Positions 18,864-64,000 of a stretch of DNA of 64,000 bases are shown piece by piece (position 1 is the first letter of the stretch; each line of letters begins with the position of its first letter). This DNA comes from Nymphaea colorata (lineage: Eukaryota > Streptophyta > Magnoliopsida > Nymphaeales > Nymphaeaceae): assembly GCF_008831285.2 (NCBI RefSeq), contig NC_045149.1, positions 5,757,500 to 5,821,499 of the forward strand, read 5' to 3'. The notes beneath the pieces were generated by a model that worked only from the letters and a program-made list of their open reading frames with translations, was not told where the DNA came from and made no database searches. The translations under genes were made by a program, and so were the position numbers.

Positions 18864-18918
<55 letters not shown>

Positions 18919-36261: not shown

Positions 36262-37059
36262 CACTACAAAAAGTGACATGTTACTAATCGTAAGAAAAGC
36301 AGCGGTCAGTAATAAAGAAATTCTACCCGCAGAAGGTGTCAGTAAATGGGCCTTTTCATCGATGGAAGAAAATCTCTTCATAAATATTATGTTTTTACTG
36401 ACGTCAAGGAAGTATCCATTAGTACAGAGAAAAACTATGGTATATATTAAGTATCACAGACGTTTTCAGATACCATCAGTGTTGATGGCATTATTACTAA
36501 CGGCTTTCGTCGGCTGTCAGTGTGATCTAACCAATAGTAACGGTATGGTAAGCCCATCAGTGTTACTTTATGAGATATTGACGGTAAGGGAAGACCGTCA
36601 GTGTTATGCCACCATGTAGCAACGGCCTGTGATCCCGTCAGTGCCAAGTAAAGATACACCGATGGTTTTTACATCTCGTTAGTAAACGTTAACCCTTATT
36701 TCCCCACACTGGTCCTCTTTTCTCCCCTTTCTGCTCGTTCTTCTTCCCTTTTACCCTTTTACCACTGGTACTGACGATGACTAAGCTGCCCACCGGTGAC
36801 TGACCTGCTCACCTAATCACTTCTATTGACTTGCTATCGGATGAAAGCATCTCAAAAGCTCTGCAGAAGTTCCCTACTCCAAAGATTGCAACGTCCTTCT
36901 TAGAGATAAGATTGCCAATCTTGCAAGGTAAATCAAATTTTGAATTTCAAGCCAAATATAGAAGAAATGCTTGAAGATGCCAAAATCTATTCCAAAAGGA
37001 AAGAAATTCAAATTTGTAATCAAGATCCAATTTTTTTGGATCTTGATAAACCAGCTTGA

Positions 37060-37244
37060 AATTTCTATTTAGCATTCTTTCCTCTCTAAAATTTTCTGTC
37101 GTTGTAAGAGAGAATTTCGTTTCAGAATTGAGAAGAAAGGAAAGACTTTGTGGACGTAGGTCGAGTATAATGGAACCACGTAATTTCTTGTGTGTTCTCT
37201 CTCTCTCTTGCTCCCTTTTTATCCCTCTCCTTTCATTCTTTTAC
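37060..37244 (+). mobile_element. Copia LTR 3' portion nested in the CACTA element
   Basis: Contains TTTGTGGACGTAGGTCGAGT and GGAACCACGTAATTTCTTGT followed by a CT-rich stretch, the usual end of a plant Copia LTR, and is directly followed by a primer site. The LTR start was not located; it may lie between 36840 and 37060. Confidence 0.55.
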
Positions 37245-37258
37245 AAGGTATCAGAGCC
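37245..37258 (+). other. Primer-binding site, Copia type
   Basis: AAGGTATCAGAGCC matches the plant TTGGTATCAGAGCC primer site except for the first two bases. Its position just after the LTR-like end confirms the plus orientation of this fragment. Confidence 0.7.
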
Positions 37259-37259
37259 A

Positions 37260-38150
37260 CAAAGGCTGTCATGAGGGCGTGAGGAACAGAAGAAGAACAG
37301 AGGTATCTATCGCCTGGCTTGTGGCTGCCGCTAGAAAAACCTATCGCGATTTCAGCCGGCGTTGTCAGCTCCGGCGACGGCAAAGGTCAAGTAAGGGATC
37401 TTTGGCATCATCTACATCTGAAGAATCTTCCTGCCAAATTTCAGAATTTTTGGAGCAGACATTGAGGAGATATGAATTTTTGAAGTGTCGCCTGTCCTGT
37501 AAAGCAGACAGAGAGTCACAGAACAGAGCTGAACCTGCCTGGAACCTGTCGCGAAATTGGACGGCGTTGTCAGCTCAGCAACATGAGGGGTCGAGCAAGG
37601 CCTTGTTGGAATAGTCTATATCTGATGATCGCTCCTACTAATTTTTAGACTTTTTGGAGTATCCGTTGCTGAGATATCATTTTTACGAGATTGACTGTTG
37701 CCATGGTAGATTGTGAAAACCCACGACACTTGTAAAAATGATATCTCAACAACGGATACTCCAAAAATTCTAAAAATTCGTACGAGTGATCCTCAGATAT
37801 AGAGGATTCCAAGAGCCCTTGCTTGACCCCTGACGTCACAGGAGCTGACAACGCTGGCCAATTTCGTGACAGGTTCCAGTCGGGTTGGGCTCTGTTCTGC
37901 GACTCTCTGTCTCTTTACAGGACAGGCAACACTTCAAAAATTCATATCTCTTCAACGTCTACTCCAAAAATTCTGAAATTTTGCAGGGAAATTACTCAGA
38001 TGTAGACGATTCAAATGAGCCCTTACTCGATCTCTGCCGTGGCCGGAGCTGACAATGCCGGCTGAATCGGTTTTTCTGATGGCAGCCACAAGCCAGGCGA
38101 TAGATACCTCTGTTCTTCCTCTGTTCCTCACGCCCCCACGACAGCCTTTG
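37260..38150. repeat. Large inverted repeat (palindrome), arms about 420 bp, 45-nt spacer
   Basis: The left arm 37260-37686 is the imperfect reverse complement of the right arm 37732-38150. Matching anchors are CAAAGGCTGTC (37260) with GACAGCCTTTG (ending 38150), GGTATCTATCGCCTGGCTTG (37302) with its complement near 38090, and ATATCATTTTTAC (37674-37686) with GTAAAAATGATAT (37732-37744). The arm sequence is retroelement leader, since it begins right after the primer site. Transcription across it would give a long hairpin RNA. Open frames at 37192-37614 and 37645-38180 are by-products of this structure. Confidence 0.9.
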
Positions 38151-39180
38151 AACGTTGGTTAGGAGGGCAGACGCCTGCACTGGCGCATTTGCGCTTCTAC
38201 TTGGAGGAGGTAGAGGGGTCCTTCCTCGACAAATCCAAACTCATTTTCAGAATATTGATGCTTCCAAGGTACCAACTTCCCCAATTCATTTTCAGTATCT
38301 CAACATGCTGATAATGACTTGAAAAAATCTCATTTTCTATGTAATTTTGGTCTGCATGTTCATTAATGTAGTTTACTTGATGATTTGTATTATCCTTGAG
38401 AAAGAGTCTTAAAGAAACAATCTTTCTTTTAGTTGACGAATCTATCAGCCTATTTCTTGTATCTATCGTGTAAAGAACCTGAAACTATATTATGGCTACC
38501 TTTCTTGTTATTGTCAGATTGTTAAATTTAATAGTTTTGGTGTCGTCTTCATGCACATGTAATCTGTAATTCAGTCAAGGAAGGGCAAGTTTTTTTGTAA
38601 ATCAAATCCAGTTAATATCTTATTTCTGTGTTTGTTGCACATGGAAGCCGAAAGATGTCAAATTTGAATGTCTAAATGGCAGAAAGCCATTGAAACAGGT
38701 TCTCTTCTGAAGTCCATTGAAGATGATTTCTTACAAAAGAGAATGTTCTCTGAAAATTCATTTGAGGTCTTGGGGTGTTACAAGGCTGTCTCAGTAGGTT
38801 TTCTATTCATGAGGAACATCAGTCCATGAAAATGCAGTTGGAGGATATGATAGCTCTAGAGTTCAATTTGGTTTCACAATCCTACCACCTTGAGTGAACT
38901 TAACAAATAAGTTAGATTTTCTAGTAAATGTTATAGATGTTCGATATAGTTTATCTATGCATACTTAGTGTTCTTCAGATTGGTAAGTGGAATGATTAAT
39001 TCTGAGACACTGTCACTTTATGGGGCCATAGCCTCCTGTCAGCTTGACTGCAATCAGAGATTTGAACGTGACTGCAATCAGAGATTTCAAGTGTTTTTAT
39101 TGCTTTCCACTGATTTTCCTCTCGAGCATGCTTCGCTCTTGACCCTTTCAAGTTCCGATTCTGCAGAAAGAGAACCTGCG
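38151..39180. other. Interior of the CACTA element, unrecognised
   Basis: A short block repeats at 39050-39090 (GACTGCAATCAGAGATTT twice). Fragments of coding texture occur around 38200-38290 but no domain can be named. Confidence 0.35.
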
Positions 39181-39856
39181 TAGTCATAATTTATTCATGA
39201 ACTTAGGTCTCTCAACATGATATGGACTTGGGCAAGCTCCAAATCCCAAAAGCGAAAGAGCATTTTCCCCATGTTCTACATTTTGTAATTTTATCTCTTC
39301 TCTAACAAAGACATCCACAGTGGAATCTTGAGCATCAAGCTGAACCCAATCTCCTTTACGATGGATGCCACTATTATATATATCCATTGATGAAGAATTT
39401 GTTTCATTTCCTTTCTTGATAGAGAAACAGCTAGAAACTTTTTCTTCATTTTTTGAGGAATCAGGATGGTCTTGTGTGATTGCTGCAGTGCCATATCAAA
39501 AATAAGTTCCTTCAGTTCATCCAATTTTTCTAATTTAAAAATCAGAATGTTGTGCAACGCTTAGGTCCAAATCATCATTTGAATGCAGACTGGTGTCATT
39601 TACAATGATCAATTCATACGTGCATCAGCTTTACAATAAGAATCTTGCTTAAGGAAATAACTCCAGATGTCTGACCCAATATTGAGAAAGACAAAACAAC
39701 AGAAACCCAAGGAATGAGAAAGAAAAAGGTAGTCTTTGATTTGCATATAGGATCAAATTCTCCCATCATATTGACATTTTTTTTATAACCTGATTCAACT
39801 GCTAGTGGCCTTAGTGGATACGCCTGAAAATCACACAAATCAAATCGTGACTTCAA
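39181..39856 (-). pseudogene. Exon-like sequence captured inside the CACTA element
   Basis: On the minus strand an acceptor-like gtgattttcag near 39823 precedes a frame reading AYPLRPLAVESGYKKNVNMM and then GEFDPICKSKT. Further down, 39600-39540 reads NDTSLHSNDDLDLSVAQHSD and 39480-39184 reads SSKNEEKVSSCFSIKKGN ... GDWVQLDAQDSTVDVFVREE. The hydrophilic, Asp/Ser-rich text interrupted by intron-like gaps is typical of host gene exons carried by a transposon. A frame break near 39540 shows it is no longer intact. The parent family is not recognised. Confidence 0.4.
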
Positions 39857-40599
39857 TTTTAGGATCGTTCAGTTAAGTTTGAAAATGTATTATATATATG
39901 CTTAACTGTTTTTTTCATTTCTCATAACATATTTTACTTATTTTATGCAGGTTTGCCAGCACATCCTAACTTTCCTCATTGATGCGTGTCAACCTAAGTT
40001 AGAGGCTAAATTATTGTACTTATTTTATGTATTCAATGTCATGTACGTGTACCATCTTAATATAAAATATGGACTAAAATTATAGGAAACAATGTCCATT
40101 TTATTTTGGTTTAAATGATGACATCAATTGTGCTTTGCGTTTGTTATATTTATTATAGGGTTTTGAATTGTTTATTTATTATGTTGTTATGTCAAATACA
40201 TGTATACCCATTATTTGGGTTGTACAAACATAATGGAATGGTAAAAAAAAATTTACAGCATTTTACTGATGGTGCATGCCCGTTAGGAACATGTGCCCTT
40301 TTACTGACAGATAGGGACAATGTCAGTATATAGCCTACAGCGATGGTTGTTTTTCCATCCGTAAACTTGCTGCATTTATTGATGGCATGGGAAACCATAA
40401 AGTTCATCTATTTTACTGTCCACTTTTTTCCCATCATTGTAGTTGAGTTATACTGATGGTAGAAAAAGCCATGTAAAAGTTTTATTGACAAACTCTACAT
40501 TGACAAAGTTCCATATCCTTTAGTGATATTTATACCAACGGCTTTTCACCCACTATTGACGTGTTCTGCTCGTCAGTAGAACTTATCTTTTTTGTAGTG

Positions 40600-57977: not shown

Positions 57978-59276
57978 GTTGGAAGTTGAATTTTTACAGT
58001 AAAAATGACTCCAGCATGAAGGAGCATTTTGCCAAGGGACGCTAACTCCAGCCCCAGCCAAGAACGCCAAAGGCTGCCCAGCCCTTACGCATAGCCAAAG
58101 GAAGACTCGGCCAGGACCAGGTAGGAGAACAGGACTTGGTTAACTGATTCCAGAGCGGGACATGTCCAGCAGTGAAGTGGGACACGCCGACAGTGGGAGG
58201 ACACAAAGGCAGGACACGCCTGGGGTTTCTCCAGACATGGGTCCGGGTTTTGAAGAGCGGGTTGAAACGGTAGTTTTGTAAATTCCGATCAGTAATTTGA
58301 TAATGCAGGTCAGGTAGCGGATGTTTTTAGTGGATCTGGGACGGGACCCAAATCCAGCCTTTTTGTCGGCCCTTGGCTTGGGTCAGCGTCAAGACCTGTG
58401 CCGATTCTAGTGGCCGTCCCGGTTCGACAACTGAGACTCGGTTATCGGATCGGGTCGCAAAGGCGGACAGCTCGGGCGTGCGAGGCCGCCCGTGCCTCCG
58501 TCCTCCTCTACTACTTCAAAAGCAGAGGGCGATGGCATTGTTTCTTGCTTTTTGATTATTCTTGTTTTACCAGTTTTGAAAATACTTCAGTATGGTTTTT
58601 CGGCGACCATAACACCGGCGAGCTAAATTAAACAGTCAAATCCTGGCTTAATCTCTCATACCTCCAAATTCTCTCAAACCAACGTCGAGAGTGCAAGGCA
58701 TGGTTCTTCTTCCATTTCCCTTCAACTGACGAACAGAAACAGGCTTCTCCAGTGTACGACCCCTACGATACAGGGGTAAGTGTCTCTCTGGTTCTGAGAA
58801 CTTGTCGGCGACGGATAAACATCGACCCCAAGCTCGTTGGTTTTTGTTAACAGTAGAGACAAAGCTTCCTCCTTCTAGCACACTGTTTCATTGGATTTCA
58901 AGAGCTTCCTCCGTCTAGCACACTGTTTTATTGGATTTCAAGAGCTTCCTCCGTCTAGCACACTGTTTTATTGGATTTCCTCCTTCTAGCACACTGTTTC
59001 ATTGGATTTCAAGCATTTCTATTGTGAAATCTCTACCCAAACCTCCACATTCCCTCTGCCTGAGTCGCACACAATCCCCCTTCATTCACCTCCAGCCACC
59101 CACTCCGTTCTACCTCTCTACCCCTATGCTAGACATCTGTGTTCCCCTCCAAATGAAGGAGAACCGACAATAGGATCCGATTCAACAGCTCCTCGCGCCC
59201 CTTTCAAAGTGTGATCCTCGGGCAGTGGCAGTGCTTGGACCACCCCTCGGCAGCCATCGGCAGGACCAGCTGCTCC
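57978..59276 (+). mobile_element. Long terminal repeat of an LTR retroelement (5' LTR)
   Basis: Begins TGTTGGAAGTTGAATT, a common plant LTR start, exactly where the hAT remnant stops, and runs to a primer-site-like motif at 59281. GC-rich relative to the flanks. Near 58862-59011 it contains a 40-bp tandem repeat. No gene frame is recognisable (58373-58631 is compositional). The matching 3' LTR must lie beyond the window. Confidence 0.55.
58862..59011. repeat. 40-bp tandem repeat, about 3.8 copies
   Basis: Units starting at 58862, 58902 and 58942 read AGCTTCCTCCKTCTAGCACA + CTGTTTYATTGGATTTCAAG. The third unit is shortened by about 5 bp before the fourth. Near-identity of the copies points to recent expansion. 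Confidence 0.9.
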
Positions 59277-59280
59277 AACT

Positions 59281-59292
59281 TGGTATTAGACC
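59281..59292 (+). other. Primer-binding-site-like motif
   Basis: TGGTATTAGACC compared with the usual TGGTATCAGAGC: two mismatches. It follows the LTR-like stretch and fixes plus-strand orientation. Confidence 0.5.
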
Positions 59293-62018
59293 CACACTCT
59301 GCATCGGCAGCGACTCCATGAGGTCTGTTGCGTTACAACAACATTGAGAAGCAGAAAAACAGAGGAAGCCGACAAAGAGCTGTGTGGGAAACCATTGGTG
59401 CTGTTTCTCTAGGAGTTTGCATTCATTGAGCCAAAGGTCTCTGGAATCGTCTACGCCTTAAGGATCTTCGAGCCATTTTTAAAGATTTTTGAGATTATCG
59501 TTGCAAAGAAACGGATTTTTGAAGCCCAGCTATTTCTTAGGCGAGTGTCGTCTCTAACTCTTCTCTTCAAGACGAACTCCAATCGATTTGGGGGCTATCC
59601 TGTTGTTTTTCACTCACTGATCAATCCTGCAAGTTTGATTCATGGACGGTGAGTGCTCCTACCCAATCATCCCCATCTTTTCAGTGATACCCGAGTGTTT
59701 CTGGCACAAAATCATTGTTGAATTGGTGCCAAATCATGTGGCAATCCTATTGGAAGATGGATGATGAAATTCCGAACAAATCAAGGAGTAGAACGCCAGA
59801 TTTGGTTTAGAAACGAGGTTTGAATCATCTTTATAAGGTTGGGGGACAAATTTCTACACTTTCCAATGGCAGAAACAAAATTTCGAGGAAATCAAAATTT
59901 TCAGCAAAATATTTCGCCGGGATTCCAATGGAGTTCGTCGGTCATAGATGAGTCCTGTGTATCAGTGTAAAAAGTAGTAGCGCGTCACCAAGATTTAGGA
60001 CTCCATATGATTTTAACGCAATAGTGTCCGGCCTTCTCGTCGAATCCTACCACGTGTCGAGCTCCGCAGTGTCCTCATCCGACGTCGAATCCCGCTCCGC
60101 ACGAGTCACGCGCTTCTCAATGGTTGCGAGGGTGTGTCGACGTCCCCTACCTTTGAAGCACGTGTCCAAACCCGACTCTTCCTGATCTTAACTTTCTCAA
60201 TCGACGAAAAAACCATAATCTGCCTTGACTTCAAAACGCCGGTGTTGATTACTCCGGCCACCGTTTTGGTCGATCAAAAATCCATCAAAATCGTCTTCAT
60301 CTTGCCTACCTCCTCACCAAATTGCAGAATTTTTAGAGTTACACTAGGGCGCTACAAATTTTTGAGTACCCACTGTTTTGAGGAGTTCTCTACAACTGAG
60401 TTTGAGCTGAGGCTCGATAGAACAACTGGGCTGAGGTGTGATTTCAACCTAGGCACAATTTTTCTAGGAGACGAATCTGCAAACAAGCTTTGTGGCGTTG
60501 GATTTTGAAGGGAGTCTATCATTTTTTTCAAGATTTTAGGACCACTCTGAAGGGAGTTAGAAAATTTTCAAGATGCAGAGGTCCATGGAGCTGCTGACCG
60601 AGTATCGTACTCACTGCACCAGATCTTTAGCAGGAGGACACGCGTTCGCCAATGCTTTTGGCAATTGCCACACCCCGTTACAACATCTCCTGGGATTCAC
60701 TCGAGCATCTGGTGACTTCCTCATCACTCCTTAAGCTTGCCTCTTATTGTTTTGTTTAGAATTTAACTATTGTGGTGCTGGGAGCTGAATCGCAGCATAA
60801 GGCGAACCTACTAAGGTGCCGCTGAGACTCGTGCAACCACACTTCCAAGGTTGCAGTTGAGTGCCATTGCTGAGGAGAGGCAATTGCTGAATACCAAGGA
60901 CTGGGCCTTATTCCTTGGCTAACTCACCGGACTAGATCCGACAGGTGAGCTTTCCCCCATCACTCTATATCTGCGAGGGAAATGGTGCAATTCTCTACTA
61001 TAACCCTTTGTTGGTACCCTTGTTTTGGGCTCCTCCTCTAGCACCGGGACACAGCTCGGTAGCAGGAAGACCTACCTGTGATATTTGGGGCATGGATTGT
61101 TGCACAACTAGGTATGTATGGATCTCTAGAGTGAGATGGGAGTGATTTATGTCATGTATCGTTGTGCCATTGTAAGGATTGAAGACTATATCTGCTAAAA
61201 ACTTTTGAGAGCTTGTAGTGAGGTCTGAGATTGGTACCGATTTCATCTCTTGTGGGCATAGCTAAAGCTGTTTGTTCAGTTGAGGGACCTATATATAAAC
61301 CAAACCTGAGAGTTAGTCACTTTACCAGTAAGAGGGCAGCACAGCGATAAGTTTCAGTCAGTGTGTCAGAAGTTTCAGTAGGAGAAAGACACTCAGCCGA
61401 CTATCAGTTACGTTCCTTGGACAGAAGTTTACAGGCTTAGGTTACTGAATGTTAATGAGTCTGCCATAGGAATAGCCCTTCGTGATTAGTAAGAAAATCC
61501 TAGCTAACTGAAACCACTTTGTTCTCAGTCTGGCGAATGGTGTTTGACCCTTGGGCTAGTTGCCTAGGCGCTAGGAGTAGCGCATCAATTAAGATTCAGT
61601 TTGAATCTGGCTTCGGGCGAGGAACAACCGCTGAGGGGCCAGAAGGGCACGTTGGTAGGTAACTCGGGTTACCTTCGTAGAAATCTCCAACTAGCAAATC
61701 AGCCGTTAGCGCTAAACCCGAATGGCGAATGGTGCGAAGGATAAAATGACAGCCTCAATTATAGAGTTTGATCCTCCTCCCTACCATTGTTCAGCACCGA
61801 TGATAACTACCGGTGTGCATGAAGCGATGGCCTCCTTACATCGCTTAAGAGAAAGACAAGCTGAACATGACTATATCTTGATGAGTTTGCTTGTGTCTTA
61901 GCCGTGTGAGAAGGAGTCCAACCATGCGCAACACAAGAAATGGGACCAGGTGGTTGGGCCAAATCAGAATTACCTTTCACCCAAATTGAAGCATGACCAA
62001 ACCCAAGCATGAGGCAAG
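59293..62018 (+). mobile_element. Retroelement leader/internal non-coding region
   Basis: No domain recognised. The plus-strand frame at 60134-60508 (124 codons) lacks family features; its text GAATTTTTAGAGTTACAC... resembles the leader of the Copia fragment at 37430-37480 in style. A short frame from the ATG at 61745 (MTASIIEFDPPPYHCSAPM...) ends after about 50 codons. Confidence 0.4.
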
Positions 62019-62435
62019 ATGATTCCAGTTTTCCTCGAATCCAAGAATGGAATTTGTTTGAAGGAATTTGACCTTCTTATACACCCAGGGACAGGTGCAT
62101 ATCGTAGCCAAACCTACACATTTATTGTGGGGCTACATCTAAACTGCAATATTGTAGTAGAACACCCCAGCATCAGTTGGAATCATTTCAAAATACAGAT
62201 TGATGAGACTAATGAGGAGATTTGGGTGAAGGACCTAGCGTCTGAAAAGGCACCATGCTCTCGGGTCAAAGAGTGACGTCTTATATGTACATGCAAGTTA
62301 AGGATGGGGACATTTTGAGAAAAGAAAAAAGGATAGTAGATTATGAGTTGAAATGGGAATTGACTGGTTCCAACCAAGGGAATGATCAAAGGAACATCCC
62401 AGCACCCACTACCCGAGGTTGGGAAAACCGTTAGA
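62019..62435 (+). pseudogene. FHA-domain gene fragment captured in the retroelement
   Basis: The frame from 62019 reads IPVFLESKNGICLKEFDLLI, then after a short linker TFIVGLHLNCNIVVEHPSIS, WNHFKIQIDETNEEIWVKDL, ASEKAP. This is the FHA fold in order: the glycine turn (here VGLH where FHA domains have GRH), the PSIS-R-x-H motif (here PSISWNHF) and the DL-x-S-x-HGT motif (here DLASEKAP). After a frame break, 62290-62370 gives MQVKDGDILRKEK and YELKWELTGSN, matching the last FHA strands (V-x-E-G-D-x-L-R-x-G ... Y-x-L-x-W). It resembles the FHA domain of plant PARALLEL SPINDLE 1-like proteins most, by eye. Key phosphopeptide-binding residues (the Arg of GR and the Ser-Arg/His-Gly-Thr) are altered, so binding is probably lost. 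Confidence 0.75.
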
Positions 62436-63110
62436 AAGGCCCTTTTTGTTGTAATAACCATATAGCTCACTTACCATCAAGAACCCCACTAAAACCAAGT
62501 GGTATGCTTGAGACAGAAAGCAATGGAACAAGACTAGCTTGCAACCACCGCTCACCCCAATCTGAATATGTTCAGACCCAACGTTATTCACGAGAATGTG
62601 ATGAGGGTCAAAGTGGCATTGGCCATTCGAGGAAATACTAGCCGAAATGGGAGCCCACGGTCTTGGACCAAAGGGAAAAGGCAGACCATATAATGCAATC
62701 TGATTGTCAAGCTCAAGAGAACAGAGGCAACGGGCAACTGCCTGTGATAGATATCCACAAGCCGCAGCGGATGGAACCTTCCTTTGGAGGACCCTTATCG
62801 ATTCTAGAAGCACAGATCGATAAGCTGCTAACATTATCGTCACTTAGGTTGAACGAGAAAATGCGAGAAGTCCGGAACACCTTTGATTCGCTACAACAGG
62901 GGCTGCAATGGTTGGTGAAGCAAGTTGAGAGGTATGAGATGGCGGATGGGCCAGCAAAACCCTTTGCGAAAACATCAAGTGAAGGAGTTACAACAGTGAT
63001 TTCGAAAGGGTTATACCGGGCCAAAATGGAAGAAAGAGCCAAGATAGACTTTCCATTGGAGGATTGGCATATCCAGCTAGCTGCTTGAGCCGAGACCAGT
63101 GACTACTCCC
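62436..63110 (+). pseudogene. Coding-like region, possibly gag N-terminal part or continuation of captured gene
   Basis: The frame 62663-63088 (141 codons) contains a probable coiled-coil segment, LNEKMREVRNTFDSLQQGLQ then WLVKQVERYE, of the sort seen at the start of Gypsy gag proteins. Upstream text (62470-62660) is hydrophilic and broken by a stop. Assignment to gag or to the captured gene is open. Confidence 0.4.
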
Positions 63111-64000
63111 CGCCAAATAAGTGTGACCCTCAACTATCATCTCCCAAGATTGATCCCATTCCACCAAACCCAGGAATAACGCACCAAGAAAAACAGAAAC
63201 GTTTTAAAACGGGTCAGTATTTTAGGTGTAAGGCGACTTGGAAGTGGGGGCATAGGTGTGAATAGAATGGCATTGAGGTTGAGGAGTCAAGTAGCATGTG
63301 CCGCACGGGTAATGAGCAAACGACGGCTGAACTCACAACATGTTCGGACCAAGCCAATGGAAGAGGAGAGGTGATCAGCCAAGAATGTAAACCTCGGCTG
63401 CCCCTACCTGGCACTGACCGGTCAAAACCCACGGGAGAGTTGGCTGCAGATAGCCAGGTTTACCTTGGGCCGGAATGGCTAAATATAGTCAAGCGAGGAA
63501 GGGCGAAAGCAACTGAGTTCGTGAGGGACGGGGGCAGCACCTATCCCATCAATTATACAGCAAGTCCAAGATAGCCTCCCCACACAAGGGGCAAGGAGCT
63601 GAAGAAATGAGAAGAAACCCCCCCCCCCGCCAGCCGCACGGAGACCTCTCCAATTAAGAATGAGTACTTTGGCATATTGGTCGAAGGACCGATCGGCGTG
63701 GTCCACCCAGCTAGTGGAAATGCAGCGCCTGGGTCCTCAATGAACCTCAAGCAAGCAAAGATTACAAATAGAGTGAGAACTTTCTTTTGGGCTACTTGGG
63801 GAGACGGGAGTGATCTTTCTACCACAATATATTACAATCGACGAGGGTGGACTGAATACAATAGGTTGGAAATCCTCTACCAACAGCCACGAAAAATGGG
63901 GTCCAATCAAATACGCCATTCACAATGTAGTGGTATTCAGTTGAATTATTCCAAAATGCCCAATCCTGCTGAGTATAGCCCAAACACCCCATTGCAAGAT
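63111..64000 (+). pseudogene. Gag-like end with degenerate zinc knuckle; element continues beyond the window
   Basis: At about 63180-63255 the plus strand reads KRFKTGQYFRCKATWKWGHR then C. The spacing R-C-x(n)-G-H-R-C is that of a Gypsy-type gag CCHC knuckle (CFRCG...GHRC) with the first Cys replaced by Tyr. A hydrophilic frame follows (63296-63574), then broken frames up to the edge. Protease and reverse transcriptase would be expected to the right of 64000. Confidence 0.4.

Follow-up and report, generated by a model that had tools for sequence, protein, structure and literature searches.

The 64-kb window of the Nymphaea colorata genome analysed here (C12:5757500-5821499) contains a palindrome at 37260-38150, which we confirm as real. 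As judged from alignment with its relatives, its two arms are copies of the untranslated leader of a Copia retrotransposon family, placed behind a single LTR and primer-binding site inside a CACTA-type DNA transposon. We consider it about as likely as not that this palindrome forms the distal end of a one-LTR Copia reverse transcript, an aberrant product inserted into the CACTA element as a unit. The features on which this reading is based are as follows, numbered from the first base of the window.

36262..40599, + strand, non-autonomous CACTA-type DNA transposon carrying the insert, from its CACTACAAAAA ends and its relatives
36898..38150, + strand, the whole insert, 1,253 bp
36898..37245, + strand, single Copia LTR and possible promoter, from alignment with family LTRs
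37246..37258, + strand, primer-binding site, from GGTATCAGAGCC at 37247-37258 and from alignment
37260..37689, + strand, left arm, sense Copia leader ending 24 nt short of where gag would start
37690..38150, - strand, right copy, leader in inverted orientation with the first five gag codons (37690-37704)
37729-38150, the portion of the right copy that pairs with the left arm

The initial annotation had described the arms as extended reverse complements, and this description held. Alignment of the left arm with the inverted right arm covers 431 columns, of which 371 are identical, 50 mismatched and 10 gapped. This corresponds to 88.1% identity over the 421 compared columns, and the local score of 557 far exceeds the best of 500 single-base shuffles (31). 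A search of the 64 kb for inverted pairs 60 nt or longer lying at most 5 kb apart (seed 14) returned five, four of which are the palindrome itself, the fifth being a 64-nt pair of 70% identity at 18883/20915. The RNA of 37240-38170 is predicted to fold into a hairpin of -665 kcal/mol, compared with -276 +/- 8 for 20 shuffles (z -47.9), and the longest perfect runs in the stem are 38 and 22. With the LTR, the primer site and the hairpin in that order, the locus agrees with the earlier proposal that transcription from the adjacent LTR would yield a long hairpin RNA. A small unpaired centre was likewise found as claimed, but it measures 39 nt by sequence alignment (37690-37728) instead of 45. This centre is no spacer; it consists of leader and gag-start sequence belonging to the right-hand copy only, which outreaches the left arm by 39 nt (41 nt in the relative L001) into gag. 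The earlier attribution of the arms to retroelement leader was thus correct for a Copia leader but incomplete, as the right copy adds the first five gag codons. At the other extremity, the left arm follows the Copia primer site directly, also as annotated, and the last base of the right copy corresponds to 37260, 1 nt short of the edge of the primer site, which itself ends at 37258. Each arm additionally comprises two units of ~204 nt that are 75-82% alike over the matched stretches (37338-37576, 37726-38062), and a relative at C8:15008945-15009652 shows at least three matches to these units at a spacing of ~190 nt. TRF returned no tandem repeats between 36000 and 41000.

The insert extends from the first base of the LTR to the last base of the right copy, and CACTA host sequence directly adjoins both ends. 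Its order is one LTR, primer-binding site, leader, and an inverted leader beginning in gag codon 5. The LTR has lost some of its integrity: its terminal TG reads TC, and internal stretches found in most aligned relatives are missing. The primer-binding site, taken to be of the initiator Met tRNA type, begins with A where most relatives have T. Among the hallmarks of a Ty1/Copia element, the tRNA primer-binding site behind a 5' LTR is present, and no 3' LTR was found at the insert to complete the pair. Nor is it bordered by a clean 5-bp target duplication, the flanks being GTCCT and AACGT; among the LTR pairs of the family, such a duplication is readable by eye in 6 of 10, with no match readable in the other four. 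The pentanucleotide AACGT occurs on both sides, at 36890-36894 (with three bases between it and the LTR) and at 38151-38155, and could conceivably be what is left of a damaged target duplication.

The claim that the palindrome is nested in a CACTA element was borne out by the ends at 36262 and 40599, which form terminal inverted repeats, and by copies elsewhere in this genome, on C4 and C9, that are related in their termini as well as their interior. The trinucleotides flanking the element, CCA and TCA, differ by one mismatch and so do not form an exact 3-bp target duplication. The relative on C4 (L007) has two bases (CC) in place of the 1,253 bp of the window. Aligned to the host flanks joined at 36897/38151, it scores 282 against a maximum of 50 in 200 shuffles, with BLAST identities of only 69-74% in the two stretches next to the insertion site. 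In the relative on C9 (L035), ~230 nt correspond to ~1,400 of the window (36814-38212), and its sequence does not align at the exact insertion junction. Because L007, and also L035, lack the sequence, the insert can be taken to span from the start of the LTR to the end of the right copy, and 36898-38150 probably entered the CACTA element as one unit, as an aberrant cDNA.

Elsewhere in the carrier, the pieces 38515-38828, 38854-39021 and 39065-39810 are 81-85% identical to three other genomic places (C6:5404190, C8:6829290 and C11:3612440), the last match overlapping an open frame of 484 codons, and most of 38515-39810 has no match in L007. These pieces are possibly captured host sequence. Three open frames at two of the donor-like places (L036, L037) matched no Pfam family. 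The window as a whole is uneven in composition, with a G+C content of 0.47-0.48 at 58001-64000 and 0.29-0.43 in the other 2-kb intervals.

The genome search that the initial annotation had suggested, covering 407,766,735 bases in 783 contigs, recovered leader-bearing members of the Copia family. Each of the six best relatives fetched carries the same leader once and in one orientation, and in four of them (L001, L002, L003, L005) the family LTR aligns directly before it. One relative on C4 (L010, L034) codes for both gag and reverse transcriptase (Retrotran_gag_2, 1.1e-27; RVT_2, 1.2e-36), as expected for Ty1/Copia. Leader length ranges from ~28 to 474 nt over 15 dated copies of the family. 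Such variation within one family resembles grapevine Tvv1, a Copia element with a hypervariable leader, for which we know of no inverted leader. In the search for the central junction, all 12 candidates were scored and the window alone spans it, which is not proof of uniqueness because words that are very common are passed over in such a search. Of the other places matching on the right copy's strand, ten do so from query position 35 (window 37689) and one from 62. No other palindrome was seen by eye among the matches of the 40 candidates scored out of 186. A MITE or fold-back transposon would be represented by many copies that all carry these inverted arms, whereas this junction was found in the window only.

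How closely the two arms are related bears directly on their origin. Their divergence (K 0.130) exceeds that of each of 16 dated LTR pairs (0.036-0.115). The arms are 87.4% identical to each other, and the nearest relative, L002, is 88.1% and 86.9% identical to them. After removal of two partial leaders (L009, L010), the arms have only two derived sites exclusively in common, out of 374 complete columns across eight sequences, compared with three for the left arm and L001 and six for the best pair. The maximum-likelihood tree contains the arms as sisters with a support of 38% for these eight sequences and 15% for ten, and the AU test keeps all seven trees compared (six constrained, one free). 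Taken together, the K of 0.130 and the few exclusive shared sites would fit two RNAs that already differed from each other.

We therefore propose an error of reverse transcription for the origin of the palindrome. In the replication of LTR elements, a reverse transcriptase copying genomic RNA would stop at the tRNA primer if this were still in place. Plus-strand synthesis would have proceeded through part of the leader and broken off 24 nt short of the gag start. The strand would then have switched to a sense template, entering it at gag codon 5, and been extended back along it as far as a tRNA that still sat on the primer site. The simplest candidate for this template is the second co-packaged genomic RNA, in which case the arms need not be sisters. 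The product could then have been joined into a break or inserted by its one good LTR end. The position of the right-copy end speaks for the tRNA block, for few random breakpoints in the ~470-nt stretch would fall as near the primer site. At the junction, microhomology by eye amounts to at most one base, so the jump left little trace. That the strand jumped specifically to an RNA blocked by its tRNA has, in our estimate, just short of an even chance. Among titles and abstract openings of mainly open-licence literature, we found no report of an insertion composed of an LTR and an inverted leader.

Two other routes to the same structure appear unlikely, to a similar degree. In the first, two Copia copies would have inserted head to head in the CACTA element, with deletions leaving one LTR, the primer site and two leaders. 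Opposed insertions of one family are common in plants, and the arms are indeed about as far from each other as from L002, but the deletions would have had to end at three telling places: at most 39 nt apart in the centre, one base away from the primer site, and precisely where the CACTA sequence resumes, at a cost of no more than two host bases. In the second, a truncated Copia would have inserted first, and template switching during later chromosomal repair, whether break-induced or microhomology-mediated, would have copied its leader backwards. A junction found only here with at most one base of microhomology suits this route, and both the maximum-likelihood tree and the AU test allow sister arms. 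However, the extra 39 nt of the right copy into gag would require another, longer source copy, the stop beside the primer site would be a coincidence, and the arms have just two exclusive changes in common over 374 columns.

It is very improbable that the locus is a functional trans-silencer kept by selection against the Copia family, comparable to maize Muk. The hairpin energy and the upstream LTR would suit such a role, as would the exact 21-mers that the hairpin shares with 13 of 21 leader-bearing loci (24-mers with 9 of 21), a fraction biased upward because these loci were mostly fetched as hairpin hits; within the leader, a 21-mer occurs in 7 of the 22 copies with a readable leader (23 copies, one unreadable). 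Against it, the LTR has suffered losses, the longest perfect runs reach 38 and 22, and of 30 transitions between the arms 13 leave a G-U pair in place (p = 0.58), so we detected no selection for pairing. A stem diverged by 12% without such a bias is evidence against a present role. Furthermore, a 21-mer is shared by 5 of the 15 dated copies with a readable leader, yet not by any of the youngest five (K 0.036, 0.037, 0.044, 0.048, 0.052), which could mean either that the hairpin was irrelevant to recent jumps or that the recent jumpers lacked its targets. No clear sign of escape from the hairpin emerged either. Among the first ten dated copies, 21-mers tended to rise with LTR age, a trend that was unsupported when extended (rho 0.50, p = 0.06, n = 15; 16 dated copies, with C2:2211 dropped as its gag start was not found). 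Leader length shows no correlation with age (rho -0.03, p = 0.91), the oldest dated copy having a leader of ~36 nt, and we therefore claim no escape. As a mark of methylation, excess CpG loss gave no signal (arms 0.81 and 0.77; six relatives 0.50-0.89). The weakest alternative, an assembly artefact from a palindromic long read with a missed adaptor, is hardly credible: such artefacts give near-identical arms, whereas 50 substitutions and 10 gap columns separate these and the asymmetric centre of the right copy holds sequence missing from the left, even though PacBio RSII reads probably underlie the assembly (described as a PacBio assembly of 409 Mb with 804 scaffolds and 14 pseudo-chromosomes; PMC7015852).

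With less certainty than the steps proposed above, read-through RNA made while the LTR was active would fold into a hairpin of ~420 bp, which Dicer-like enzymes could cut into siRNAs against relatives bearing the leader. Muk-like silencing by the locus is possible from its structure, and that it ever made siRNAs is a tentative proposition to which we give somewhat less than even weight; that it mattered for the control of the Copia family is very doubtful. Any silencing role has probably been lost, and the locus, an old hairpin, is today a decaying relic. Among the first 10 of 1,206 papers matched by a small-RNA search of mainly open-licence literature, none dealt with Nymphaea.

The Muk transcript of maize is described as a perfect 2.4-kb hairpin that is processed into siRNAs and causes heritable silencing (PMC2563033). 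The initial annotation compared the present locus with Muk, and the comparison holds in its logic: part of a transposon is duplicated in inverted orientation, and a long hairpin transcript, here a predicted one, matches the family. It does not hold for the stem, which here is ~420 bp long, derives from a retrotransposon and is 12% diverged, with its longest perfect runs at 38 and 22. Since the near-perfect stem is missing and siRNA production and silencing in trans are only potential features here, we do not file the locus as a Muk-type silencer. In Arabidopsis, inverted insertions of the Copia element ONSEN have been proposed as a source of double-stranded RNA and a trigger of silencing (PMC5501947). 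The inverted duplication here is likewise Copia-derived; in contrast to the ONSEN case, which was offered as a possible mechanism, it is a sequenced locus. The maize study of Teosinte Pollen Drive links genomic hairpins to siRNAs and implicates one of them in pollen drive (PMC11390486); our locus is a genomic hairpin as well, and a candidate source of siRNAs at most. For maize Copia elements, hairpin-like structures are described as frequent, concentrated in LTRs and accompanied by more small RNAs (PMC10760457).

Inverted copies have been proposed as one trigger for the silencing of new transposon families, a process whose onset is still an open question. The locus described here suggests a plausible one-step route, in which a retrotransposon makes its own inverted copy with the promoter attached. 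The exact breakpoints, at gag codon 5 and at the edge of the primer site, can be searched for in other genomes; recurrence of such products would make the idea testable at scale, and otherwise the locus would stand as a curious relic. The general proposal, that errors of Copia reverse transcription make ready-made hairpin loci in one step, by such a jump to the second genomic RNA that halts at its tRNA primer, is a long shot on the present evidence. If it were true, an LTR promoter with an inverted leader would land as a self-contained silencer of its own family, and Muk-like silencers would come as an inherent by-product of retrotransposition, not from rare accidents to chromosomes.
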